Below the pieces are notes generated by a model that was not told the DNA's origin, did not search any database, and saw only the letters and a program-made list of their open reading frames with translations. From positions 324,732-388,731 of the forward strand of contig CACAND010000001.1 in the NCBI GenBank assembly GCA_902533795.1: a DNA stretch of 64,000 nt, written 5' to 3'. This document shows, piece after piece, positions 1-29,793 of this stretch. Every line of letters starts with the position of its first letter. Position 1 is the stretch's first letter. This DNA comes from an uncultured Candidatus Actinomarina sp. GTDB lineage: Bacteria > Actinomycetota > Acidimicrobiia > Actinomarinales > Actinomarinaceae. A program made the translations under genes and the position numbers.

Positions 1-279
1 ATCAGTTAAATCAATTATTGAATTATATGGTTCAGAGATAAGCATCAATTTGAATCTGTCAATTGGACCTGTAACTTCCTTATTATCTTTATGAGCATTG
101 TCCCAAATAATTTCCACAGATTTATCTGGATCTTTAGAAAAGTTTTGATAACTTTCCATAATTTCAACCAATATCTCTTCTGGCTCTCTTATTTCTATAG
201 ATTGAGCAGCAGGCTCTGATTGATTACAAGTAATAAATAGTAAGGAAATTATAAAAAATTTTAAACTTTTTCTAACCAC
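1..279 (-). CDS. Putative lipoprotein, DUF4864-like (3' end outside window)
   Basis: A minus-strand frame stays open for 93 codons from a GTG at 279 to the window edge, so the C-terminus is missing. The N-terminus has two basic residues, a hydrophobic stretch and LLFITC, an imperfect lipobox, then a Gln/Ser/Glu-rich linker. The motif DNKEVTGPIDRFKLML followed by EPYNSII resembles DUF4864-type domains (small stress- or thylakoid-associated proteins of unknown role); that match is from memory and tentative. GTG is the only start after an in-frame TAG. The start overlaps the stop of the upstream microprotein by 8 bp, so the genes are probably translationally coupled. Confidence 0.55.
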   Translation of the reverse strand, partial: MVRKSLKFFIISLLFITCNQSEPAAQSIEIREPEEILVEIMESYQNFSKDPDKSVEIIWDNAHKDNKEVTGPIDRFKLMLISEPYNSIIDLTD

Positions 280-367
280 GAAATACTAAAGTTACCACCA
301 AATAAAGATGCAATAAAAATGTTAGAAATATAAAAGACCAGAAAAGTCTTTTTTCTAATTTACTCAC
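272..367 (-). CDS. 31-aa single-TM microprotein (copy B of a tandem pair)
   Basis: GTG start, stop TAG at 272-274. The product is a short basic head SKLEKRLFWSF followed by one hydrophobic helix. It is a clear paralogue of the preceding 35-residue ORF: both carry S-x-LEKR-x-FWSF, then four residues, F-x-LH-x-YLV. The GTG overlaps the upstream stop as GTGA (4 bp), and the stop overlaps the lipoprotein start by 8 bp. This close packing and the shared motif argue for real translation. Function unknown. Confidence 0.6.
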   Translation of the reverse strand: MSKLEKRLFWSFIFLTFLLHLYLVVTLVFRG

Positions 368-471
368 AACGAGATTGTGAGAAGCCCCATTGAATCAATT
401 ACTAGGTACATATGTAATACAAAAGCTACACCCATAAAACTCCAGAAGGTACGTTTTTCTAATCTACTCAC
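364..471 (-). CDS. 35-aa single-TM microprotein (copy A of a tandem pair)
   Basis: GTG start with an AGGA ribosome-binding site about 8 bases upstream, stop TGA at 364-366. It starts SRLEKRTFWSF, followed by a hydrophobic helix containing LHMYLV, and matches its downstream neighbour at most motif positions. The pair looks like a recent tandem duplication of a one-helix membrane protein. I recognise no family. The genes 512-670, this one, copy B and the lipoprotein form an apparent minus-strand operon. Confidence 0.6.
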   Translation of the reverse strand: MSRLEKRTFWSFMGVAFVLHMYLVIDSMGLLTISL

Positions 472-511
472 AGTTGAATCCTAGTAATAATAAAAAGTTT
501 TACCTAATTAG

Positions 512-670
512 TTACTCTTGGTTTGCTCTTTCATATGCTTGGCTGTACAAAATTAATGTAGGAGCCCATAATCCAATATATATTGCAAGTTGTGAGTCAT
601 CCAAAACAACGTAAATAATTACAGATGCAACAACGGAAACAATACTTGCGTATAAACCTAATTTTATCAT
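512..670 (-). CDS. 52-aa two-TM membrane protein
   Basis: ATG start preceded by AAAGGA at good spacing, stop TAA at 512-514. The protein has two hydrophobic helices (about residues 3-23 and 28-43) joined by a short acidic loop (LDDSQ), and a polar tail ending ANQE. It is first in the apparent minus-strand operon of small membrane proteins and is divergent, across 54 bp, from another small membrane protein. No family recognised. Confidence 0.55.
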   Translation of the reverse strand: MIKLGLYASIVSVVASVIIYVVLDDSQLAIYIGLWAPTLILYSQAYERANQE

Positions 671-724
671 TTATATCCTTTCAGTTAATATTATAATTTA
701 ACACGATTATTAATATTAATTTAT

Positions 725-868
725 ATGATTGAAACATTAACATCAAATCCATTAACGTTAGTCCTTATATTCCCTGTAGTGACGTTGACAATATTCGTTG
801 TTGGGATAATTAGGATGGATATTGCTAAATTTAATCAAAAACATGTTTTTGTCACTGAAGAAGAGTAA
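725..868 (+). CDS. 47-aa single-TM protein
   Basis: ATG start, stop TAA at 866-868. A polar N-terminus is followed by one hydrophobic helix (about residues 9-29) and a charged C-terminal tail ending VTEEE. It lies between a divergent small membrane protein and a same-strand hypothetical gene 37 bp downstream. No family recognised; called a gene on composition, membrane topology and filling an otherwise empty interval. Confidence 0.45.
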   Translation: MIETLTSNPLTLVLIFPVVTLTIFVVGIIRMDIAKFNQKHVFVTEEE

Positions 869-905
869 CTTTATTATTGTCACAATAAAATACTTATATT
901 AAATT

Positions 906-1406
906 ATGGACCTTAATAATATTGAAAACTTGGAAGATGTAGAGCTTTTTGATCTTCAAAATCAAATCACCGAAATTATAAAAAAAAGAAATCTTGAAAA
1001 GGGAGATATTGAAGAAATAATAGATAATTCATTCAACATAGGTTTTCCAAAAATTGATGGTGTTGGACTCAACCCATGGATTGATAATTCTTTAATTATT
1101 TGTCCTGGAGCAAGAATTGATAAAACTAAAACTCGTCATATTTGTAAGTTTATAGTCATTGACGAAGAGTGGTCTTGGGAGTCGCCTCATATGATAAGTG
1201 ATGTAATTAGAAGAGACCAATCGTCTAAAAATTTTAGACAACACTCTATTACTTTAATCTCTCCTTTTGAAGGGATGAAGGTTCAGGTAATATCTCAGAA
1301 ATCGCAACAAGGCAAACATCTTGTTGAAGGAGTCGATTCATTTGAATTTAGAAATGGAAAGTTAGAAAAAACAATGACCAAAACCTCTAGGTCTAGAGAT
1401 CACTGA
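906..1406 (+). CDS. Hypothetical protein, 166 aa
   Basis: Soluble, acidic N-terminal half with a predicted helix (residues about 8-42), then a mixed region with WSWESPHMISDVIRRDQ. No signal peptide or membrane helix. It lies 29 bp upstream of the NDH-2 gene on the same strand and may be co-transcribed with it. I do not recognise the family; the length and codon use look like a genuine gene of this genome. Confidence 0.7.
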   Translation: MDLNNIENLEDVELFDLQNQITEIIKKRNLEKGDIEEIIDNSFNIGFPKIDGVGLNPWIDNSLIICPGARIDKTKTRHICKFIVIDEEWSWESPHMISDVIRRDQSSKNFRQHSITLISPFEGMKVQVISQKSQQGKHLVEGVDSFEFRNGKLEKTMTKTSRSRDH

Positions 1407-1435
1407 TTAATCAGTAAAGTTTTATAATTTAATAT

Positions 1436-2677
1436 ATGTTAAATGTAGTTGTAATTGGTGGTGGGTTTGGAGGACTTAAATTTCTTCAACGGGCTAGAAG
1501 TAGCAAAATTCAATTTACTCTTATAGACAAGCAAAATCATCATTTATTTCAACCATTACTTTATCAGGTAGCAACTGCAGTTTTATCTCCAGCTAATATT
1601 GCTTTTCCAATCAGAAGAATGTTTAAAAATTACAAAAATGTAAAAGTAATATTAGATGAAGCTGTAGATATAAATCGTGACGAAAAGACTGTGACCATAT
1701 CAAATGGCGACAATATAAAGTACGATCAACTAATTGTAAGTACTGGGTCAAAACATTCTTATTTTGGTAATGAAGATTGGTCTAAATATTCAAATGGACT
1801 TAAAGGAATTAATGACGCTTTACAAATTCGTGAAAGATTATTGAGGGCGTTTGAAAAAGCTGAGAATGAAAAAAATATTGATAAGAGAGCAAAATATTTA
1901 AACTTTGTAGTCGTTGGTGGCGGGCCTACAGGAGTTGAAATGGCTGGCTCAATAGCTGAGATTGCATTTAACAATATGAAGGAAGAGTTTAGAAATTTTA
2001 AGAGTTCAGATGCTAATGTTTATTTAATTGAAGCTACTGAAAAAATCTTACCAATGTATAGTGACAGGCTGTCTGGAAAAGCAAAAAAGTATCTTGAAGA
2101 CTTTGGAGTTGAAGTAAGAACAAATGAGAAAGTTGTGAAAATAGAAAATGATCTAGTCACGACGGACAAAGAAGACATACATACAGATAATGTTGTTTGG
2201 GCAGCAGGTAATGAAGCAAGCCCAATAATTGAGAAGCTAAATACGAAAACAGATAATGAAGGAAGAGCAATTGTTGACCCAGATTGTTCACTTAAAGACG
2301 ATGGAAACGTATTTGTTATCGGAGACGCTGCTAATTATAAAGATAAGAAAAACAACACTCTTCCAGGCATTGCCCCAGTAGCAATCCAACAAGGGAAATA
2401 TCTCGCAAAAGTTATAAAGAGTAAAACAATCAAGAAAGATAGGAAACCTTTTAAATACAATGATAAAGGAATGATGGCAACGGTGGGCAGGTATAAGGCG
2501 ATAGGTAAAATTGGAAATATAGAAGTATCTGGTTTTTTAGCTTGGCTCTTTTGGAGTGCAATTCACATTCTGTATTTAATAGGATATAGATCAAAAATAT
2601 TAGTTGTGATTGAGTGGATATTTTCCTACCTTTTCAATAAAAAAGGTACAAGATTAATTTACAGAGAACCAACTTAG
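1436..2677 (+). CDS. ndh: Type II NADH dehydrogenase (NDH-2)
   Basis: A 413-residue FAD-dependent pyridine-nucleotide oxidoreductase that passes electrons from NADH to quinone without pumping protons. The N-terminal FAD Rossmann motif is GGGFGGL. A second nucleotide-binding motif, VVGGGPTGVEMAG, lies near residue 160, and the FAD-contact motif VFVIGDAA near residue 290. The hydrophobic C-terminal stretch (WLFWSAIHILYLIGYRSK) is the usual membrane anchor of bacterial NDH-2. Length is near the family norm. It ends 3 bp from the convergent mgtE gene. Confidence 0.92.
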   Translation: MLNVVVIGGGFGGLKFLQRARSSKIQFTLIDKQNHHLFQPLLYQVATAVLSPANIAFPIRRMFKNYKNVKVILDEAVDINRDEKTVTISNGDNIKYDQLIVSTGSKHSYFGNEDWSKYSNGLKGINDALQIRERLLRAFEKAENEKNIDKRAKYLNFVVVGGGPTGVEMAGSIAEIAFNNMKEEFRNFKSSDANVYLIEATEKILPMYSDRLSGKAKKYLEDFGVEVRTNEKVVKIENDLVTTDKEDIHTDNVVWAAGNEASPIIEKLNTKTDNEGRAIVDPDCSLKDDGNVFVIGDAANYKDKKNNTLPGIAPVAIQQGKYLAKVIKSKTIKKDRKPFKYNDKGMMATVGRYKAIGKIGNIEVSGFLAWLFWSAIHILYLIGYRSKILVVIEWIFSYLFNKKGTRLIYREPT

Positions 2678-2680
2678 AAC

Positions 2681-4051
2681 TTACAAGAATAAAAGCGCAA
2701 TAGCCAGAAAGCCACCAAAACCCGCAATATCAGTAACTAATGTAAGAAATATATTTGATGCTAGTGCTGGATCAAATCCTAATTTTTTTAAAATCAAAGG
2801 TATTGATGAACCAAAAAAATTCCCAATAAATATATTAGTAAAAACAGCAGAACCTAAAGCTAAAGAAAAATCACCTAAACCAACAAAGCTCAATATAAGA
2901 AATGAAAAAGTGCCAACCAAGATGCCATTTATGATTCCAATCAGTGTTTGTTTTCCAATTACATCAAGAACTCTTGCCTCAGAAACATCATTTCGTGCCA
3001 AAGCTCTTATTACAATTGCTAAAGACTGAGCACCAGAACTTCCCCCAATTAATGCAACTACCGGCATTAAAGCAGCCAGTAATACATTACTAGTAATTGT
3101 TTCCTCAAATTGGAATATCAAAAACGAAACAATAAATGCCAAGACCATATTTATTGCTATCCATGGAAGTCGAGACTGTATTGATTTTTGAATAGGTGTA
3201 AAAATTGTTTCTTCAGCCCCTGCACCAAATGATTGAGAAAAATCTTCAGCAATTTCTGTTTGTATAACATCTAGTGCCGAATTTATAGTTATTTGACCAA
3301 TCAATTTATTATCTTTATCAATTACTGGGAGAGCTAGTAGTTCATATTGTCTTATTAATCCTGCCGCCTCCTCCTGATCAGATGAAGGATTTACAAATAC
3401 TGGATCTTGAATCATTACATTTTTGATTAAGTCGTCTTCATTTGCAAAGACAATTTCTCTAAAAGAAATCACTCCCGTGAGTCTATTTTCTTTATCTACT
3501 GAATATACATAAATTAAATCCTCTACGTTATTGTGAAGCGACTTAAGTTCTTTCAGAGCATCTTTAACAGTTAATCCAGTTGATATTTTTGCTACTTCTT
3601 CAGACATCTGTCTTCCTACAGAGTCTTCTGGGTAAGACAGCCTTCTATCTATATTTAGTTTTGTAGATTTGTCTAAAATTTCTAAAATTTCATCAGTTTC
3701 ATCATCAGTAGATCTTTCTAAAACATCAACAACGTCTTCTGTATCCATTTGCTTAAAAATCTCCTCAACATCTTTGTCATCCAAAGATTCAACAATTTCA
3801 ATAATTGCACGTGGACGCAGGGATTCAAAAATTTTTACCGCTGTTAAGGTTGGAAGCTCGGTAATTAATTTTCCCGCCTCAATAGATTCAAATTCTTCAA
3901 GTGCATCAGCAGAATCGAAAGGATCTTTAGTGGCTATTTGAATCCACAATTGTTTGTTTTCTTCAAGATACCTATAAGCTTTTTCTGGATTAGAACGGGC
4001 TAAATCTCTAAGTTCTTTACCTTTTGATGGATTAACAATTTCATTATTCAT
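2681..4051 (-). CDS. mgtE: MgtE-type Mg2+ transporter/channel
   Basis: About 456 residues in MgtE order: an acidic helical MgtE-N domain, two CBS domains (around residues 140-260), and a C-terminal pore domain of about five helices containing GGSSGAQSLA and ending with TDIAGFGGFLA. MgtE imports Mg2+ and is gated by Mg2+ bound between the cytosolic domains. I chose ATG at 4051, with AGG five bases upstream, over the GTG two codons earlier. It follows the S9 peptidase by about 45 bp and may belong to the same TPP-controlled transcript. No M-box Mg2+ riboswitch fits upstream. Confidence 0.93.
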   Translation of the reverse strand: MNNEIVNPSKGKELRDLARSNPEKAYRYLEENKQLWIQIATKDPFDSADALEEFESIEAGKLITELPTLTAVKIFESLRPRAIIEIVESLDDKDVEEIFKQMDTEDVVDVLERSTDDETDEILEILDKSTKLNIDRRLSYPEDSVGRQMSEEVAKISTGLTVKDALKELKSLHNNVEDLIYVYSVDKENRLTGVISFREIVFANEDDLIKNVMIQDPVFVNPSSDQEEAAGLIRQYELLALPVIDKDNKLIGQITINSALDVIQTEIAEDFSQSFGAGAEETIFTPIQKSIQSRLPWIAINMVLAFIVSFLIFQFEETITSNVLLAALMPVVALIGGSSGAQSLAIVIRALARNDVSEARVLDVIGKQTLIGIINGILVGTFSFLILSFVGLGDFSLALGSAVFTNIFIGNFFGSSIPLILKKLGFDPALASNIFLTLVTDIAGFGGFLAIALLFL

Positions 4052-4097
4052 GAACACCTGATATTTACTTTAATTAGATTTTATAAGTTTATTTTGA

Positions 4098-5987
4098 CTA
4101 GCTAAGTTGTTTTTTATGCCAATTGATAATTGAATCAAATCTTTGAACTCTATGTTCTGGTTTGCCAGATCTAGAAAGTTCATGACTTTCATCTGGGAAC
4201 CTTATCATTGATGATGAAACACCTCTCCTTTTAAGGTTTGAAAATAATTGCTCAGCCTGCTCAATTGGGCACCTGTAATCTTTTTCCGAATGAATTATTA
4301 GTGTTGGGGTAATAATGTTGTTTGCATAAGTGATTGGACTTTTCTTTCTGTACAAATTCAAATTACTTTTTAGGTCATCCAAAAGATACATTTCAGGAAA
4401 TCCAATTCCAATATCTGAAGTTCCGACCATTGTTTCCCAGTTCAATAGAGCTCTCTCGACAACAGCAGATTTAAACATTTTTGGATAATGACTAATTACC
4501 CAAGAAGTCATAAAACCACCATATGAACCTCCCATAATTCCATAGTTTTTATTTTTTATTCCAAGCTTTTTTATCATCATTTCAAAGCTTTTAATTACAT
4601 CATAAGTGTCATTCTCACCCCATTTGTTCCCACAAACGTCTCTAACAAACTTGTGTCCTCTACCTGATGAACCACGAGGATTACAAGCTACAACATTAAA
4701 ACCAGAAGATGCAAAAACCTGAAACTCATCAAAAAACCCAAATCCATATTGACTGGCAGGACCACCGTGTATGTTTAGCAAAGTAGGTTTATTGATATCT
4801 ACAAGTATTCCCCAAGTATCAATTTGAGATTTTCCAGTTTCAAATCTTTCATATACACAATTATGAGTACGTACTTTATTGTGAAAATTATTATTAAAGT
4901 CTGAAAATTTTTTATCCTCATCATTTCTAATTAAATATACTTCATCTTTTTTATCGAATGAGCTTACTAGAGCATAAATATCTTCACCATCAACACAGAA
5001 ATCAGAGGTTAGGAGTTCTTTATCATATAAAATCTCAAAACTTTCAAAATCAGTTTTAAGTAGACTTTGTTTTCCAGAATCTTCATACAAAACATAAATT
5101 TTGTTATCACTAACTTTCGTTTTAACTACACCTCTATCAATAAAATTACTAACTTTGTTGGCAATACCTCTTTTGTTAATTTTGAAAATACTAATATTCG
5201 TCGGCCAGTCAAATCTCTTATCAAGACCGACACCGTATAAATTATCTTGATAAGAAAATAACTGGCTCCACATACCACCTGTATTTATAACTGTTAATTG
5301 TGAATCTGAAAATTTTATAATTTGATCTTCAAGCATCGTTCCATCTTGATTATGCTTGCTTGCTATAAAGTACATATCAGAGTTAATTTCAAGAAGAGAG
5401 GATATTGATAGAAACAGTTCTTTATCTCCATCTATAATTTTCTGACTTTTACCAGTAGAAGTCTTTACTTTATAAATATGAAATCTTTTATTGTATATAA
5501 CCCCTGTTGTATCAAATCGAAAAGGTAATTTATCAATTTCTAGAGGATGATCAGTTTTATTTTCAATTTTTTTATATTCACTCGACCACTCTTTTGTTAT
5601 TACGTAAATAAATTCATCATTAGAACTCCATAAATAGTTAACAATAGAATCATCAGTTTCAAATACTATTTTTTCTTTACCCCTATTTCTAAAAATAAGC
5701 TTATTTTTTTCTAGTTTTTTTTTCTTTTCTAATTTATCCAAAATTTCAGTAGATTTTGGTGTTTTGATAAATGCAAATGATTTTTTATTGTTTGAGTACT
5801 TCGGTGCTGAAAAATTCCAATACGAGGATTGTTTTAGTTCTCTCCATTGATTTTGTGAAAATTTCCATATTGAAGATTCGTATGAATTTTTATCCAGGTT
5901 CATTTTCGTTGACTTAAGTAGCAAGTCTGAGTTATTATTACTTATTTCAGACAGGCTTACAAAATCAGATATATTTTTTGGCTTCAT
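4098..5987 (-). CDS. S9-family prolyl oligopeptidase (acylaminoacyl peptidase type)
   Basis: A 629-residue serine peptidase with an N-terminal beta-propeller-like region and a C-terminal alpha/beta hydrolase domain. The nucleophile elbow is GGSYGGF (Ser near residue 490); SEKDYRCP supplies the acidic residue and DESHELS the His. GGPASQYG is the oxyanion region typical of this family. No signal peptide, so it probably acts on peptides in the cytosol. It follows the TPP-riboswitch-linked symporter by only 16 bp, so co-transcription is likely, although a link to thiamine is not obvious. Confidence 0.9.
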   Translation of the reverse strand: MKPKNISDFVSLSEISNNNSDLLLKSTKMNLDKNSYESSIWKFSQNQWRELKQSSYWNFSAPKYSNNKKSFAFIKTPKSTEILDKLEKKKKLEKNKLIFRNRGKEKIVFETDDSIVNYLWSSNDEFIYVITKEWSSEYKKIENKTDHPLEIDKLPFRFDTTGVIYNKRFHIYKVKTSTGKSQKIIDGDKELFLSISSLLEINSDMYFIASKHNQDGTMLEDQIIKFSDSQLTVINTGGMWSQLFSYQDNLYGVGLDKRFDWPTNISIFKINKRGIANKVSNFIDRGVVKTKVSDNKIYVLYEDSGKQSLLKTDFESFEILYDKELLTSDFCVDGEDIYALVSSFDKKDEVYLIRNDEDKKFSDFNNNFHNKVRTHNCVYERFETGKSQIDTWGILVDINKPTLLNIHGGPASQYGFGFFDEFQVFASSGFNVVACNPRGSSGRGHKFVRDVCGNKWGENDTYDVIKSFEMMIKKLGIKNKNYGIMGGSYGGFMTSWVISHYPKMFKSAVVERALLNWETMVGTSDIGIGFPEMYLLDDLKSNLNLYRKKSPITYANNIITPTLIIHSEKDYRCPIEQAEQLFSNLKRRGVSSSMIRFPDESHELSRSGKPEHRVQRFDSIINWHKKQLS

Positions 5988-6003
5988 TTAAATTTTCTAT
6001 TTA

Positions 6004-7383
6004 CTATTTTATTCTGTTGTAAGAAAGAGTACCAATGATAGAAAAAATAAACCCTACTCCAAATGTGTTAAGGTCTGCAAGCCCATAGAGATCAGTTGGT
6101 ATAAATATCCCACCTGGATTCAAATCTAAATCAATAAAATAAAATCTGTACAACACTGATGAAACAAAACCCAAAGATGTGGGGATCACTATACCCTGGC
6201 TAGTTTTTCTTGATTTAATTTTATAAAATGCAGGGAAGACCAAACATACAGCCAAAAGGTCAGCAAATAAAAATACTGAAAATATATTTGTTACATAAAA
6301 TGATAATCCTAAAGAGCCAAAAGTAATTATAAGTGTAATTATTTTTGCTTCAGACACACCTCTTTTTACAAGATCTAAAGCCATTGTTGAAGATATTGCA
6401 CTTTGAAGAGTATCAATACTTGACGCAACAAGCATTGTACAAAGTACAATTACAAGAATTCTTGAAAAGGTATTAAATTCTATTTGCTGGATAAAACTTA
6501 AGGAAGGATTTTCAATCCCAAAGCCTGCTCCAGATGAACCTGCAATTCCAAGAACGAGTACTGTTATAAAACAACCCAATCCAGCATAAATGGATGATTT
6601 TTTAATTACATTTTCATCAATTGCAGAATATGTTCTTTGCCAGTAACCCTGAGAGAATATTTCTGCTGCAGTTACTGCAAGAATTACAGCAAGAGCAGAC
6701 TTAAAACTGGCAAATGTAAATGTATTTAATCCTCCATCGTAAGAAGCTTCGATAATATTATTAATTCCATTTTGACTTATCCACAAAAATAAAACAATAA
6801 TGAGAAGTGCAATTATTGATATACCTTGGAATCTATCAGTGACAAGAGACGCCTTAAAGCCTGAAAGATTTAAGTAAAGAAAAGTCACGACTGCTATTGC
6901 TGTACAAACAATGAAACCAGAAGTCTCCGATATTTCAGGAAACAAAAAATTTATTGATGCGAATTCAGCAATTAGAAAAGCTGACATATAGATGGTTGCA
7001 ATTATTGAGACAAAAACTTGAGCAAAATTTCCATATTGTTGACTTATGTATTGAGGAAGAGTTGCTTTGTCTGGAACTGTTTGAACAATACGTGGTCCCA
7101 CAAAATACAACAACACAAAAGGGGTAGCGGCAGAGATTGCATAACCTATAACATCAAAACCTAAGCCATACCAGCCAACCTCTGCTGGAGAAGCAATAAT
7201 CCATAACCCCATACCACTTGCATAAAAACTCAAGGATAGATTGAGGGTCTTTTGAGATTTCAGCATAACAAAATAACTTTTATCTTCTGTTTTGTTTGCC
7301 AGCCTTCTTGTTAAGACAAGAAAGAGAAAAAGTATAAAGAATATAAGTATGTAATTAATTAAAACGTTTGTACCTAACTGCAC
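6004..7383 (-). CDS. Sodium:solute symporter, probable thiamine or precursor importer
   Basis: A 459-residue SSS-family transporter with about 12-13 hydrophobic helices. The GTG start at 7383 has GAGG at good spacing. The gene sits directly behind a TPP riboswitch, which implies that its substrate is thiamine or a thiamine precursor such as HMP. A TPP-riboswitch-controlled SSS transporter (named ThiV) is described as a candidate HMP importer in SAR11 bacteria; whether this protein is orthologous cannot be judged here, so no symbol is given. No thiamine biosynthesis gene lies in the window. Confidence 0.85.
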   Translation of the reverse strand: MQLGTNVLINYILIFFILFLFLVLTRRLANKTEDKSYFVMLKSQKTLNLSLSFYASGMGLWIIASPAEVGWYGLGFDVIGYAISAATPFVLLYFVGPRIVQTVPDKATLPQYISQQYGNFAQVFVSIIATIYMSAFLIAEFASINFLFPEISETSGFIVCTAIAVVTFLYLNLSGFKASLVTDRFQGISIIALLIIVLFLWISQNGINNIIEASYDGGLNTFTFASFKSALAVILAVTAAEIFSQGYWQRTYSAIDENVIKKSSIYAGLGCFITVLVLGIAGSSGAGFGIENPSLSFIQQIEFNTFSRILVIVLCTMLVASSIDTLQSAISSTMALDLVKRGVSEAKIITLIITFGSLGLSFYVTNIFSVFLFADLLAVCLVFPAFYKIKSRKTSQGIVIPTSLGFVSSVLYRFYFIDLDLNPGGIFIPTDLYGLADLNTFGVGFIFSIIGTLSYNRIK

Positions 7384-7404
7384 AATTACCTCATTTCATA
7401 AATG

Positions 7405-7492
7405 GGATAAGAGTTCCGAATATCCCTTCGTTAGAATTACCTAACAGGTTCAGACGGTCGGTTTTTACACCCTCTCAGCATTTTGCTCCCGT
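7405..7492 (-). promoter_or_regulatory. TPP riboswitch (thi box)
   Basis: Read on the minus strand, the element has every conserved block in order: GGGAGC, GCTGAGAGGG, CCGACCGTCTGAACCTG, GGTAAT and CGAAGGGA. The end of the aptamer (GGGATA, 7421-7426) can pair with TATCCC (7404-7409). The same CCC can instead pair with GAGG of the symporter's ribosome-binding site, through CCCATTT against AAATGAGG. Bound TPP would keep GGGATA in the aptamer, free CCC and hide the ribosome-binding site. That is a standard translational OFF switch. The structures are drawn by eye, not computed. Confidence 0.93.
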
Positions 7493-7538
7493 TAATACAA
7501 TCCTACTCTATTTCCAATTTATCATTAGTATTTCAAGA

Positions 7539-8450
7539 ATGATTAATAATAATCAAATAAACAATAGACCATCCCTCATTCAAACTATAGGAGCAGTTTT
7601 AACGGCAGGAGTTATGTGGGGTTCTGCAAATGTAATTATTCGTAGTTTGCTTATTGAAGGGTTAAATGAAATTTTTTTAGTAACGGTCAGAGTATCAATT
7701 ATTGGTACTCTACTTTTCTTTTATTATTTAATTTTTAATAAAGAAAAATTTAATAAACAGCTTTTAAAAGAAGCTTCTTTTACTGGTTTAGCCTCAATAT
7801 TTTTTGTAAGCTGGGCCTTTATATTTTCTCTTCAATACATTTCCTCAGGATTAGTTACTTTATTGATAAGTTCTGCTCCAATTTTTACAGTTATGTGGGT
7901 AAAGCTAATCTTAAAAGAAGAAAAAATTTCAAAACTAAAATATTTCTCCGTATTGATTGGTTTTTCTGGAATAGCTTATTTATTTATTTCCCAGGAAACA
8001 GGTTTGTTGAATCAAGGAAATATTTTTTTGGGAGGTACATTGGCATTCTTAGGAGTTCAATGCATTGCTCTCGCTACTGTTCTCAATAGAAAATTTGCTC
8101 CTAAATATAAAGTAAGTAGCTGGTTAACCTATCAATATCCACTTGTAATAATTCTCACCTTTTTGACGTATTTAATTTCTGGAGTAGGTATAGATATATT
8201 AAATGTTTCACAGCTGATAAGACTTGGAGCATTAGTTGTATGCAATCTTGGAGCATTTTTATCTTTCACTTGGTTAATTCAAAGAGTAAGCGCATTACAG
8301 GTTGCATCTATTGATTATTTAGTACCAGTTGTAGGAGTAACAGCCGGAGTTATATTTTTAGGAGAAACATTTAATAGGAACATTCTGATTTGTAGTATTT
8401 TCATCTTTGTATCTTTATTACTTACAACAAAAGATGAATTTTCAAACTAG
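7539..8450 (+). CDS. EamA/DMT-family permease
   Basis: 303 residues with ten hydrophobic helices arranged as two EamA repeats; GVMWGSANVI and the second-repeat LGAFLSFTWLIQRVSALQVA are typical. These are metabolite exporters or importers of the inner membrane, and the substrate cannot be told. The frame is open further upstream, but that part is antisense to the TPP riboswitch, so I start at the ATG at 7539. No clear ribosome-binding site precedes it. It overlaps the convergent UDG gene by 4 bp. Confidence 0.85.
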   Translation: MINNNQINNRPSLIQTIGAVLTAGVMWGSANVIIRSLLIEGLNEIFLVTVRVSIIGTLLFFYYLIFNKEKFNKQLLKEASFTGLASIFFVSWAFIFSLQYISSGLVTLLISSAPIFTVMWVKLILKEEKISKLKYFSVLIGFSGIAYLFISQETGLLNQGNIFLGGTLAFLGVQCIALATVLNRKFAPKYKVSSWLTYQYPLVIILTFLTYLISGVGIDILNVSQLIRLGALVVCNLGAFLSFTWLIQRVSALQVASIDYLVPVVGVTAGVIFLGETFNRNILICSIFIFVSLLLTTKDEFSN

Positions 8451-9025
8451 AGATTATCAAAAGCAGTTTTAACTTTTTTTAAATCTTGCCAGGTTAACCA
8501 TTTTGGTTTCCCAGGCTCTTTCGAAGGGCTTCTTAAGAGATATGATGGATGAAAAATAGGCATAATTTTGATATTGTCCTTTATTATCCACTCACCTCTT
8601 ATCTTCGAAATTGGTTTTTTTATCTCAAGAAATGCTTCCACAGATGTTGATCCCGCCAAAATTATAATTTTTGGATTTAACAAATTAATCTGTTTTGTTA
8701 GCCAAGGCATACATGAATTTATTTCATTTGAATCAGGCTTCCTATTTTGAGGAGGTCTACACTTAACAATATTTGTAATATAACAATCCTCCAAAGGATC
8801 AATTTCAACAGACATTAATGCTGAATCAAGCATTTTTCCAGCTCTTCCAACAAACGGAAATCCTGTAATATCTTCTTGCTCCCCAGGTCCTTCTCCGATT
8901 ATTAAAATCTTAGCTTTAGAATTTCCCTTTGCTACAACAACATTATTTCTAGTTTGAGAAAGTTCGCAAGACTTACACTTTCTACATTCTTTATGTAGCA
9001 ATAAGAGATCTTGATTTGTTGTCAT
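8447..9025 (-). CDS. Family 4 uracil-DNA glycosylase
   Basis: 192 residues. Removes uracil from DNA. GEGPGEQED is the family 4 catalytic motif, followed by PFVGRAGKMLD, and HPSYLLRSPSKEPGKP is the C-terminal motif. Cysteines at CRKCKSC near the N-terminus plus CYITNIVKC and the later Cys in EINSC fit the [4Fe-4S] cluster ligands of this thermophile/actinobacterial-type enzyme. Start ATG at 9025. The upstream 330 bp hold structured non-coding sequence. Confidence 0.9.
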   Translation of the reverse strand: MTTNQDLLLLHKECRKCKSCELSQTRNNVVVAKGNSKAKILIIGEGPGEQEDITGFPFVGRAGKMLDSALMSVEIDPLEDCYITNIVKCRPPQNRKPDSNEINSCMPWLTKQINLLNPKIIILAGSTSVEAFLEIKKPISKIRGEWIIKDNIKIMPIFHPSYLLRSPSKEPGKPKWLTWQDLKKVKTAFDNL

Positions 9026-9059
9026 ACAAAAATTCTAATAGAAAGTTGTTTTGGGAACA

Positions 9060-9238
9060 CCCCAGTAAGAACTGGGGAGTTTTGTATACGTACTAATCGA
9101 ACAGGAATTAATTAGATATTTGATAATTATGAATACTTTTTTTAAACAGAATGTAAACACAAAGAAAACATATTTAAAAATGAGAAAACCCTTGAATACT
9201 CCGCTTGTTTTGTTGCCAAAACTCACTTGCTTCAAGGG
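9060..9238 (-). ncRNA. Candidate structured RNA in the udg-cbiM gap
   Basis: The interval 9026-9355 has no convincing gene but two strong inverted repeats. One is 9189-9196 (CCCTTGAA) with 9231-9238 (TTCAAGGG). Inside it is a 6-bp stem (9207-9212 with 9217-9222) whose minus-strand loop is GCAA, a GNRA tetraloop, which argues for minus-strand RNA. The second is 9060-9066 with 9071-9077 (CCCCAGT/ACTGGGG). The linker is AT-rich. It could be a small RNA, a 3' end of cbiM mRNA or a 5' leader of the UDG gene. It matches no RNA family I know. Confidence 0.4.
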
Positions 9239-9355
9239 CTATCTCTTTTTCTTCTTGTAATGATTATCTATAAAGACTTTCTTCACAAAAAGTTAATATA
9301 AAATTACACTGAAAATAAATTTTTTTCAAAAAAAAATTATCTTTTTTTTCCCACT

Positions 9356-10282
9356 TTAATTCCGATTTTTAACCTTAATAAAAATGTTAAATAATCCAAC
9401 GATTACAACTATTCCTAATACTGCACTCAGAACTGTAGACAAGAAGTTATTGTTAATATTTTCTATACCGTAATCTTCTAAAAATAAAACAACTCCTGTG
9501 TCTTCATTAAAGCCAAATGATTCAGCTACAGACTCAAGACCATCAGGTGACGAAGAGGCGTAAGGAGTAATTAAAGTGAGAACTAAAATTAGTAGAATAA
9601 ATAATCCATAGAATGAAGTTACTTTGTTGCTTTTGTCGGTATTTTTATTTACATAAACTAAATCAGATCTAACTCTTAAAAGCAATGAAACTATCAAAGC
9701 GGTAATTATTCCCTCACCAATACCAATTAACAAATGGCTTGAGACCATAGCTATTAATACACTTCCAAGAGGTACTGCAACAGTACCTCCCAAAGAATAT
9801 TCAAGAACAAATGCAATTGAAGAAAATACAACAGATAATAGACCAGCTATGAATGATCCTGAAATTGTGGAAGAATAACTTTCACCAAATAATTTTTTCC
9901 ATGTAGATATTGTTATCCAGCCAATAAGAGAAGTAACAACTGCCATATTTAGTAAGTTAACCCCTAAGGCACTCAGGCCTCCGTCAGCAAAAAGCAATGA
10001 TTGAATTACTACAACTATTGATATGCATATAATTCCAAGACTAGGCCCTAATACGACAACAGCCAGCGCACCACCTAAAAGATGACCACTGGTTCCTGCT
10101 GCTATAGGGAAATTAATCATTTGTAATACAAAAATTAATGCCGACATCATTCCAGTAAGCGCAATTAAACGATCAGCTACTAAATTCTTAGCATTTCTAA
10201 TATATGCCCAAATAGTCGCCAAGCTTATCAAACCAGATGCAGCAGAAACCGGAGCATTTATAAATCCGTCAGGTACGTGCAT
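9356..10282 (-). CDS. cbiM: CbiM-type cobalt/nickel transport membrane protein
   Basis: The start MHVPDGFINAPV is the conserved CbiM N-terminus, whose His and free amino end bind the metal ion, so I begin at 10282 and discard 17 upstream residues. SGHLLGGALAVVVLGP and the DGGLSALGVNLLNM motif are diagnostic. The C-terminal part carries a PDGLE motif (SSPDGLESVAESFGF), a CbiN-like domain fused to CbiM. Together they form the substrate-capturing part of an ECF-type Co/Ni importer. No cbiQ or cbiO partner lies nearby and the 54 bp upstream are too short for a cobalamin riboswitch. Confidence 0.9.
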   Translation of the reverse strand: MHVPDGFINAPVSAASGLISLATIWAYIRNAKNLVADRLIALTGMMSALIFVLQMINFPIAAGTSGHLLGGALAVVVLGPSLGIICISIVVVIQSLLFADGGLSALGVNLLNMAVVTSLIGWITISTWKKLFGESYSSTISGSFIAGLLSVVFSSIAFVLEYSLGGTVAVPLGSVLIAMVSSHLLIGIGEGIITALIVSLLLRVRSDLVYVNKNTDKSNKVTSFYGLFILLILVLTLITPYASSSPDGLESVAESFGFNEDTGVVLFLEDYGIENINNNFLSTVLSAVLGIVVIVGLFNIFIKVKNRN

Positions 10283-10336
10283 ACAAAAAGTATAAAATTT
10301 AATTAAGTTAATGCAAACAATTTGCAATAACAAATA

Positions 10337-13907: not shown

Positions 13908-14987
13908 TTAGATAAATTTTCCTAATTCTTTTTCAAACAGATCAGGCTCTAAAAGAAAACAATCATGACCTTTTGTTGAGCTTATTGTTTTATGAGTTAC
14001 ATTGATTTGATTTGCTTCCAAAAGCTTAACAAATTCTGACTGTTCTTCTGGATAAAAACATACATCTGAATCAACAGAAACTACTAAAACTTTAATATCT
14101 TTGAGTCTTTCAATTTTCTCTACATCTATAGAAAAGTTTTGCCAACCTTTAATTATTGAATTGTAAGATTCATGAGTGAATCTCTCAATGAACTTTTCTC
14201 CTTGATGCATCATATAAGACTCTTGTGATGTTGATAAGAAACCATTAACTATGTCTTCACCATACTTACTTTCACCTTTAGCCCTTGATGCAAGAAGCTC
14301 CAAAGAGATGTAAGTTTTATGTGCAATCATTCTTGCTAAAGCCAAATACTCATCTCTTCTGTCAGGTGAACCCTTTGCCAGATTTAAGACGTAAGCTTGT
14401 TCAAGGTTGTGAAGTAATTGAATTGTGGATAATTTATATCCACTTGAAATTGAGATAAGATTTTCTACAAAATCTGGATATAAAAGGGAAAACTCTAATG
14501 CCATTAAGCCTCCAATAGAGGGACCAATCACGGCCTTTAAAGATTTAACTCCTAGGTTATCTAATAATTGTTTTTGTGAAGTTTCTATATCCTTGAAAGA
14601 AATATTTGGAAAATTCTCGCCATATTTTAATCCAGTTTTATTATCAATAGAATTTGGGCCTGTGGTCCCGTAACATCCACCAAGATAGTTTGCACAAACT
14701 ACAAAATATTTTTCGGTATCAATAAGTTTATTTACACCAACAAATTCGTCCCACCAGCCAATTTCTAATTCATCATTCCAGGGAATTTCTGAGTTTTCTT
14801 CTTGCGAGTAACTTCCTGCCAACATATGACTTCCGGTTAGAGCATGAAATATTAATACAGCATTGTCGCCTTTTTCTGACAAAGTTCCGTAAGTAGTGTA
14901 AGCAATCTCTACATTCTCAAGCAGTTCACCTGAATCAAGTTTAAATTGTGGAATGTAAAACTTGCTTGTTTTATTTTGTACTTTCAA
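13908..14987 (-). CDS. metX: Homoserine O-acetyltransferase
   Basis: 359-residue alpha/beta hydrolase-fold acyltransferase that makes O-acetyl-homoserine from homoserine and acetyl-CoA. HALTGS forms the oxyanion region, NYLGGCYGTTGP is a MetX hallmark, GPSIGG holds the nucleophile Ser (near residue 160), and the C-terminal GHDCFLLE provides the His. It overlaps metY by 17 bp and follows it in the SAM-riboswitch-controlled transcript, which supports methionine synthesis by direct sulfhydrylation. Confidence 0.95.
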   Translation of the reverse strand: MKVQNKTSKFYIPQFKLDSGELLENVEIAYTTYGTLSEKGDNAVLIFHALTGSHMLAGSYSQEENSEIPWNDELEIGWWDEFVGVNKLIDTEKYFVVCANYLGGCYGTTGPNSIDNKTGLKYGENFPNISFKDIETSQKQLLDNLGVKSLKAVIGPSIGGLMALEFSLLYPDFVENLISISSGYKLSTIQLLHNLEQAYVLNLAKGSPDRRDEYLALARMIAHKTYISLELLASRAKGESKYGEDIVNGFLSTSQESYMMHQGEKFIERFTHESYNSIIKGWQNFSIDVEKIERLKDIKVLVVSVDSDVCFYPEEQSEFVKLLEANQINVTHKTISSTKGHDCFLLEPDLFEKELGKFI

Positions 14988-16251
14988 GAGCTTGAGATAG
15001 ATCTTCTATGATATCATCTATGTCTTCAATACCAATTGAAAGCCTTACTAACTCTGCAGGAGAACCTGCAGCTATTAACTGCTCGTCATCTAATTGTGAA
15101 TGTGTTGTGGATGCAGGGTGAATTGCTAAAGATCTAGTATCTCCGACATTCGCAACATGTCTAAACATTTTTAAATTATTAATAAATTTCTGTCCAGAAT
15201 CTTTTCCACCTTTGATACCAAAAACAACCATTGTTCCGCCAGTACCTTTCAAGTACTTTTCTGATAGGTCATAAGCAGGATCATCTTTGAGTCCTGGAAA
15301 CCTTACCCATTCAACAAGTTCATGGTTTGATAGATATTCAGCTGCCTTTATAGCATTTTCACAATGCCTGTCCATTCTAAGACTTAAAGTCTCAAGACCA
15401 CTCATAACTTCAAAAGCTGTCTCTGGAGACATACTTGCGCCAAGGTTTCTTAGTGGAACTGTTCTTAGCCTTAATGAATAAGCTACATTACTTAAATCAC
15501 CTAAATCATGTCCCCATCTCATTCCGCCGTAACTGGTATCAGGCTTGTCATATAATGGAAAATTTCCATTACCCCAATCAAAACCACCTTTTTCAATAAC
15601 TGCTCCGGCAATTACTCTTCCATGCCCAGACATCCATTTTGTAAGAGAATAAACTACAATATCTGCTCCAAAATCAAAAGGTTTACAAATTGCTGATGTA
15701 GTAAAAGTAGCATCAACTATTAAAGGGATACCTTTAGATTTAGCAATTTCTCCTAATCCAGAGATATCAGCGACAACTAATCCTGGATTAGTTATTGTCT
15801 CACAATATATTGCTCGAGTGTTCTCATCAATGGCATTTTCAACAGCAGTTAGATCTGTAATATCAACTTTTTTAGAGTCGATACCGTATTCAGGCAATAT
15901 ATTATCGAACATTGTATAAGTACCACCATAAAGTTGGTTTGCTGTAACAAAATTATCTCCCTGACTCATAATATTTATAAGAGAGTACATAACTGCAGAT
16001 GTTCCCGACGATAGAGCAACAGACATAGCGCCATCTTCTAGAGCCGTCAGCCTTGCTTCTAAGGCACCAACAGTTGGATTCCCGAGTCGAGAGTAAATGT
16101 TTCCAAACTCTTTTAAGGCAAACAAGCTAGCTGCATGTTCAGTGTCATTAAATTGATATGCAGTTGTTTTATAAATAGGAACAGTTATTGACCCCTCGGA
16201 GTCAGCATCTGAATCCCAACCTGCATGTATAAGTTTTGAATCAAACTTCAT
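14971..16251 (-). CDS. metY: O-acetylhomoserine sulfhydrylase
   Basis: 426-residue PLP enzyme of the Cys/Met-metabolism family, converting O-acetylhomoserine plus sulfide to homocysteine. Features are AALSSGTSAVMYSL-like PLP phosphate-binding region (here VALSSGTSAVMYSL), VDATFTTSAICKP and SLTKWMSGHG containing the PLP lysine. SRLGNPT is also diagnostic. ATG at 16251 lies six bases after GGAG, which is part of the riboswitch expression platform. First gene of the metY-metX operon. Confidence 0.95.
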   Translation of the reverse strand: MKFDSKLIHAGWDSDADSEGSITVPIYKTTAYQFNDTEHAASLFALKEFGNIYSRLGNPTVGALEARLTALEDGAMSVALSSGTSAVMYSLINIMSQGDNFVTANQLYGGTYTMFDNILPEYGIDSKKVDITDLTAVENAIDENTRAIYCETITNPGLVVADISGLGEIAKSKGIPLIVDATFTTSAICKPFDFGADIVVYSLTKWMSGHGRVIAGAVIEKGGFDWGNGNFPLYDKPDTSYGGMRWGHDLGDLSNVAYSLRLRTVPLRNLGASMSPETAFEVMSGLETLSLRMDRHCENAIKAAEYLSNHELVEWVRFPGLKDDPAYDLSEKYLKGTGGTMVVFGIKGGKDSGQKFINNLKMFRHVANVGDTRSLAIHPASTTHSQLDDEQLIAAGSPAELVRLSIGIEDIDDIIEDLSQALESTK

Positions 16252-16254
16252 AAT

Positions 16255-16370
16255 ATTCTCCTTTGTTTGGAGAAGGGCTTTGACTACTTAGTTGCATTTC
16301 TGCCACATCTTCAGGCACCTTGGATAGTCATCCAGGTTGCCGAGGTCTTAACCTTCTCTTTATGCTTAAA
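16255..16370 (-). promoter_or_regulatory. SAM riboswitch (SAM-I/IV or SAM-IV type)
   Basis: Minus-strand leader of metY. The conserved core is CGGCAACC followed by AAGGTGCC. P1 is GAGAAGG (5') with CCTTCTC (3'); a small GGT-taag-ACC hairpin follows. P3 is CCTGGA with TCCAAGG. Its loop GACTA can pair with TAGTC downstream, the pseudoknot of the SAM-IV and SAM-I/IV group. A hairpin closed by a GAAA tetraloop (GCA-GAAA-TGC) lies between. The 3' P1 strand also complements the ribosome-binding site (TTCTCC with GGAGAA), so gene control probably acts on translation. Confidence 0.88.
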
Positions 16371-29425: not shown

Positions 29426-29514
29426 GGAGGGATCGCATAGTCTGGCCTAGTGCGCACGCTTGGAAAGCGTGTAAGGGTTTATCCCCTTCGAGGGTTCGAA
29501 TCCCTCTCCCTCCG
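29426..29514 (+). tRNA. tRNA-Ser(GGA)
   Basis: Type II tRNA, acceptor GGAGGGA with TCCCTCC, anticodon GGA in CTTGGAAAG, variable arm AAGGGTTTATCCCCTT, discriminator G at 29514. Its first 30 bases match tRNA-Ser(CGA) on the other strand with one difference, so the two form an inverted repeat around tadA. Confidence 0.95.
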
Positions 29515-29533
29515 CACAAAAGATTTTAAATTT

Positions 29534-29619
29534 GGAGGGATGGCCGAGCGGACGAAGGCGTTAGTCTTGAAAACTAATGTATGTATTCCATACCGTGGGT
29601 TCGAATCCCACTCCCTCCG
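29534..29619 (+). tRNA. tRNA-Ser(TGA)
   Basis: Type II tRNA, acceptor GGAGGGA with TCCCTCC, anticodon TGA in TCTTGAAAA, variable arm around TATGTATTCCATA, T-arm GTGGGTTCGAATCCCAC, discriminator G. Confidence 0.95.
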
Positions 29620-29626
29620 CATGCTT

Positions 29627-29718
<92 letters not shown>

Positions 29719-29719
29719 A

Positions 29720-29793
<74 letters not shown>

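Follow-up and report, generated by a model that had tools for sequence, protein, structure and literature searches.

A TPP riboswitch ahead of a divergent sodium symporter and an S9 peptidase in Candidatus Actinomarina: a predicted route for thiamine uptake

In the genome of an uncultured Candidatus Actinomarina sp. (0.98 Mb on 13 contigs, at 90% completeness), a TPP riboswitch aptamer is followed on the minus strand by genes for a sodium symporter, an S9 family peptidase, and the magnesium transporter MgtE (Table 1; positions refer to the window, the whole 64,000-nucleotide stretch of DNA that was analysed). The arrangement raises the question of which compound is taken up under TPP control, and whether the two genes behind the symporter share in the task. 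Our analysis makes it quite likely that the organism is a thiamine auxotroph whose only TPP riboswitch represses a thiamine-importing, Na+-coupled symporter of the SSS type together with the S9 hydrolase just behind it, with MgtE as an optional passenger; thiamine brought in by the symporter would be pyrophosphorylated to TPP by a separately encoded thiamine pyrophosphokinase (TPK).

Comparisons were made across a genus sample of 42 Candidatus Actinomarina genomes, all incomplete (51–94%); the named relatives whose symporters are 97–98% identical to the window's copy are themselves uncultured Candidatus Actinomarina. The divergently transcribed EamA-type transporter gene upstream is a conserved neighbour across the genus, with the exception of one divergent relative (G001). 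A CbiM-like component of a cobalt transporter, bearing a PDGLE domain at its C-terminus (9356–10333, minus strand), is a conserved neighbour in the relatives examined. Elsewhere in the window, four tandem tRNA genes lie within 370 bp (29426–29793, plus strand).

Table 1. Features of the TPP riboswitch locus and its divergent neighbour (window coordinates)
Feature	Position	Strand	Evidence
TPP riboswitch aptamer (RF00059)	7406..7502	-	53.9 bits, E 5.7e-10
Putative translational expression platform	7384..7427	-	sequence and folding, 26 leaders
Divergent SSS/SLC5 sodium symporter, predicted thiamine importer, GTG start	6004..7383	-	SSS superfamily model E 2e-9 and predicted fold
S9 family serine peptidase (acylaminoacyl-peptidase/oligopeptidase-like)	4098..5987	-	Pfam Peptidase_S9 E 2e-47
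MgtE magnesium transporter, facultative third gene	2681..4057	-	TIGR00400 283.8 bits, cut-off 232.75
EamA-type transporter, divergent neighbour, outside the unit	7539..8450	+	Pfam EamA E 5e-25

The aptamer and its possible mode of control

In a 401-base scan of the minus strand, the aptamer match (7502..7406) spans the full RF00059 model (positions 1–105). Its score lies 0.4 bits under the Rfam gathering cut-off of 54.3 bits, which is why a default Rfam scan of the window leaves it unlisted; a permissive scan detects it. It is the single TPP site in this genome, the next best match in a genome-wide scan reaching 13.4 bits. Strong matches occur in 33 of the 42 genus genomes; orthologous leaders score 37–55 bits (four reach the cut-off), and the leader stands directly 5′ of the same symporter gene wherever leader and gene can be read together. 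Alignment of 16 distinct representative leaders reveals an invariant CTGAGA core, canonical helices P2, P3, and P4/5, and compensatory (both-sided) changes at three pairs in the P4/5 and P3a-like helices. Helix P1 forms three of its five pairs in the window's aptamer and none in the consensus fold of the 16 leaders. The preliminary description had called the aptamer canonical, a slightly strong word: it holds for the core, whereas P1 is not conserved. The TPP aptamer is real, and it is predicted to bind TPP.

The aptamer was not found in nine of the 42 genomes, including one rated 90% complete (G032). That genome is without the aptamer, the symporter, a peptidase orthologue, and MgtE, and keeps TPK; an assembly gap or another route to thiamine may account for the absence. 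In G004 the contig stops at the start of the peptidase gene. In G012 the aptamer match and a truncated symporter gene are on different contigs.

About 13 bases separate the 3′ end of the aptamer from a ribosome-binding sequence (GAGGT) that immediately precedes the symporter's GTG start codon at 7383, and a search of window positions 1–10000 turned up nothing like a terminator on the minus strand. With the aptamer so close to the ribosome-binding sequence and no sign of a terminator in that search, translational control is the most likely mode, with TPP probably repressing translation of the symporter mRNA. In the window's leader TATCCC has two possible pairings, one with GGGATA on the 3′ side of the aptamer and one over GAGGT; similarly, in many of 26 leaders a UCCC box that follows the 3′ GGGA of helix P4 could pair either with that GGGA or near the ribosome site. 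Folding calculations in which the aptamer strand was removed gave reduced access to the ribosome site in 22 of 25 leaders. The alternative pairing was no better than that of composition-matched shuffled linkers, which did nearly as well, and for this reason a switch by mutually exclusive GGGA/UCCC pairing is put forward as a plausible hypothesis only. When TPP is plentiful, the bound aptamer would hold its 3′ GGGA strand in helix P4, so that the adjoining CCC box would cover the ribosome-binding site and translation would be shut; when TPP is scarce, the site would be open and uptake would rise.

The window also contains a SAM-I-IV riboswitch (16279–16370, minus strand; 75.2 bits), directly 5′ of an O-acetylhomoserine sulfhydrylase-like gene (14971–16251) that is followed by a homoserine acetyltransferase-like gene (13908–14987), both named from their translations; this locus is an ordinary case of methionine control.

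The symporter and its predicted substrate

The symporter is divergent at the sequence level. It matches no Pfam model (PF00474 is not reached), scores 37 bits (E 2e-9) against the TIGR00813 SSS superfamily model, for which the cut-off is 184, and has no relative in the PDB by sequence searches with either the single sequence or a profile. Its predicted structure is more informative: the AlphaFold model (pLDDT 80, pTM 0.84) has as its best PDB match by E-value the human choline transporter CHT1 (3e-11, TM 0.72), and also matches SiaT (TM-scores 0.77/0.74), SGLT, NIS, and DUR3, so that the protein, as modelled, clearly has the SLC5/SSS (LeuT-type) fold. The match to the SSS superfamily is weak by sequence and clear by fold. 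CHT1 carries a quaternary ammonium compound, and its place as best match to the model is compatible with a cation such as thiamine, although only suggestive.

A tyrosine in TM2, an acidic residue in TM3, and a phenylalanine in TM6, at SiaT positions 78, 139, and 254, are expected of ThiV/SSSP symporters; the invariant residues Y81, E140, and F243 fall in the corresponding helices and are candidate counterparts. An SSS-like stretch of the symporter (SGFKASxxTDxxQ) could be matched to GGFLAVSWTDTVQ of PutP by a partial profile alignment (probability 40), too weak for placing substrate residues. Orthologues of the symporter were identified in 28 of 35 genus genomes searched.

A further indication of the substrate comes from the thiamine genes of the genus. 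Searches covered ThiC, ThiE, ThiL, TPK, PnuT, and YkoE in the 42 genomes and ThiD in this genome. None of the 42 genomes has ThiC or ThiE, and the same searches were positive in 13 and 11, respectively, of 14 control genomes. Each genome has a single ThiL-like match, under the cut-off, which in the window's genome is SelD rather than ThiL; the single ThiD-like match there is a ribokinase. TPK is encoded in 40 of the 42 genomes. The copy in the window's genome scores 139.7 bits against TIGR01378 (cut-off 76.4), matches both the catalytic and the B1-binding domains (PF04263 and PF04265), and has solved TPK structures among its relatives. YkoE and PnuT supply thiamine to bacteria unable to make it and are often TPP-controlled; neither family of importers is found in any of the 42 genomes. 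Since biosynthesis genes are absent, TPK is kept, and PnuT and YkoE are missing, the TPP-controlled symporter stands out as the leading candidate importer of thiamine. On this gene content the symporter probably imports ready-made thiamine, and Candidatus Actinomarina is predicted to be a thiamine auxotroph.

The preliminary description had left the choice between thiamine and HMP scavenging undecided, proposing a search for thiC, thiD, thiE, and thiL and naming a full thiamine pathway with another transporter as one finding that would speak against it; the results above run counter to such a pathway and favour thiamine over HMP. Import of HMP (or of some other pyrimidine precursor), the role proposed for ThiV in SAR11, has in its favour the same riboswitch–symporter architecture in SAR11, where there is evidence of HMP uptake (PMC11452348), and the frequency of HMP auxotrophy in marine plankton. 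Yet the joining of HMP to thiazole needs ThiE, which every genome of the genus lacks; ThiL is also missing, ThiD was not found in the window's genome, and the enzyme that has been kept, TPK, is useful only with intact thiamine. HMP brought into such a cell would lead nowhere, and we regard this substrate as unlikely.

The S9 peptidase and MgtE behind the symporter

The peptidase gene begins 9–29 bp behind the symporter gene in all 29 intact loci measured (16 bp in the window, as originally reported). The two genes are adjacent in 29 of 31 loci checked, with protein identity ranging from 54% to 100%, and the two exceptions keep the peptidase downstream, behind inserted genes that read, by their translations, as a Tdh-Kbl pair in G026 and a VOC-family protein in G001. 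The catalytic residues Ser488, Asp570, and His602 are invariant, and the protein has PDB relatives at E 4e-65. The peptidase is thus a constant partner in the unit and not an incidental neighbour. The narrow gaps in 29 genomes support the proposal of a single symporter–peptidase transcription unit, and nothing resembling the terminator that would have separated the two genes was detected in the minus-strand search described above; promoter-like matches were no commoner than in shuffled sequences and decide nothing about a separate start for the peptidase. In G026, the inserted genes (positions 2731–4950 of L111) are threonine dehydrogenase- and 2-amino-3-ketobutyrate CoA ligase-like, a pair possibly captured by the TPP-controlled unit.

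The role of the peptidase, left unexplained in the preliminary description, is still so, even though its constancy in the 29 intact loci makes it more than incidental. There is about an even chance that it is a housekeeping oligopeptidase that is simply carried on the same mRNA, plays no part in the metabolism of vitamin B1, and perhaps has start signals of its own: S9 enzymes are common, and in G026 and G001 other genes have been inserted before it. Against such a passive role, the adjacency is kept across this range of protein identity, with the gene behind the peptidase varying, and given such short spacing a promoter would hardly fit outside the coding sequence. A direct role, in which the enzyme releases thiamine, or a form of it bound to a peptide or acyl group, after uptake or otherwise acts on the symporter's cargo, would fit its constant position in a TPP-controlled unit and the intact Ser-Asp-His triad of a family of hydrolases; TPP-controlled salvage hydrolases such as YlmB do exist. 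No acyl-thiamine substrate known from seawater was identified, however, and the papers searched describe no further unit in which a TPP riboswitch is combined with an S9 peptidase; a direct role seems doubtful. The narrower proposal of a dedicated salvage hydrolase, releasing thiamine from acylated or peptide-linked forms imported by the symporter, is more doubtful still; if true, it would imply that seawater contains an as yet unrecognised pool of vitamin B1 in bound form.

MgtE is a looser associate. Its gene follows the peptidase gene by 40 bp from a GTG start or 46 bp from the nearest ATG, close to the spacing first described. An MgtE match is present in 19 of the 42 genus genomes and in four of the eight best; the remaining 23 genomes, including the other four of the best, have none, and many of these 23 still carry the switch, symporter, and peptidase. 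Where MgtE is missing, the peptidase gene is followed by a gene for NADH dehydrogenase on the opposite strand (directly so in two genomes) or by unrelated genes. Where MgtE and the peptidase are on one contig, MgtE keeps its place behind the peptidase, and it does so even in the divergent relative G001, which points to loss in some lineages as the simplest, if tentative, reading.

The earlier suggestion that Mg2+ import would be logical in the same unit finds no support as a general rule. A module in which the symporter and MgtE jointly supply TPP and its Mg2+ partner would account for the closely spaced, same-strand MgtE gene in the window's genome and for its retained position elsewhere; it is hard to reconcile with the persistence of the rest of the unit in so many genomes without MgtE, or with the NADH dehydrogenase gene that directly follows the peptidase in two genomes, and we consider it highly improbable. 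MgtE is an optional neighbour and does not speak for a general TPP/Mg2+ logic.

Relation to known thiamine uptake systems

The arrangement belongs to a known kind, the ThiV/SSSP-like combination of a TPP riboswitch and a sodium symporter. In SAR11, the SSS symporter ThiV (SAR11_0811)/SSSP lies behind a TPP riboswitch and has been assigned to HMP uptake (PMC11452348, PMC4260697, PMC2704228). Both are streamlined marine bacteria in which an SSS-type sodium symporter directly follows a single TPP riboswitch. In SAR11 the synthesis of HMP is all that is lacking, and HMP is the predicted import, whereas Actinomarina lacks ThiC and ThiE throughout the genus, showed no ThiL or ThiD in the searches above, keeps TPK, and is predicted to import thiamine. 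By description and architecture, the level at which ThiV/SSSP was compared, the Actinomarina symporter also differs from SAR11 ThiV in being followed by a peptidase; algal SSSP reaches the Pfam SSS model PF00474, and the Actinomarina protein does not.

Thiamine itself is carried by an SLC5/SSS-family protein under TPP riboswitch control in Candida (Dur31); Dur31 and Neurospora NCU01977, compared here by description, resemble the Actinomarina system in family and in riboswitch type, but are eukaryotic and controlled through splicing (PMC5997356). According to a published survey, the Actinomarinales resemble other streamlined microbes in their dependence on vitamins; the survey mentions no riboswitch (PMC7771536).

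The only distinctive points of the Actinomarina locus are the predicted change of substrate, from HMP to thiamine, and the constant peptidase. An abundant, streamlined ocean bacterium is thus predicted to need intact thiamine, not the HMP used by SAR11, and to obtain it through a related type of symporter; if this is true, two groups of plankton would depend on different vitamin B1 currencies.
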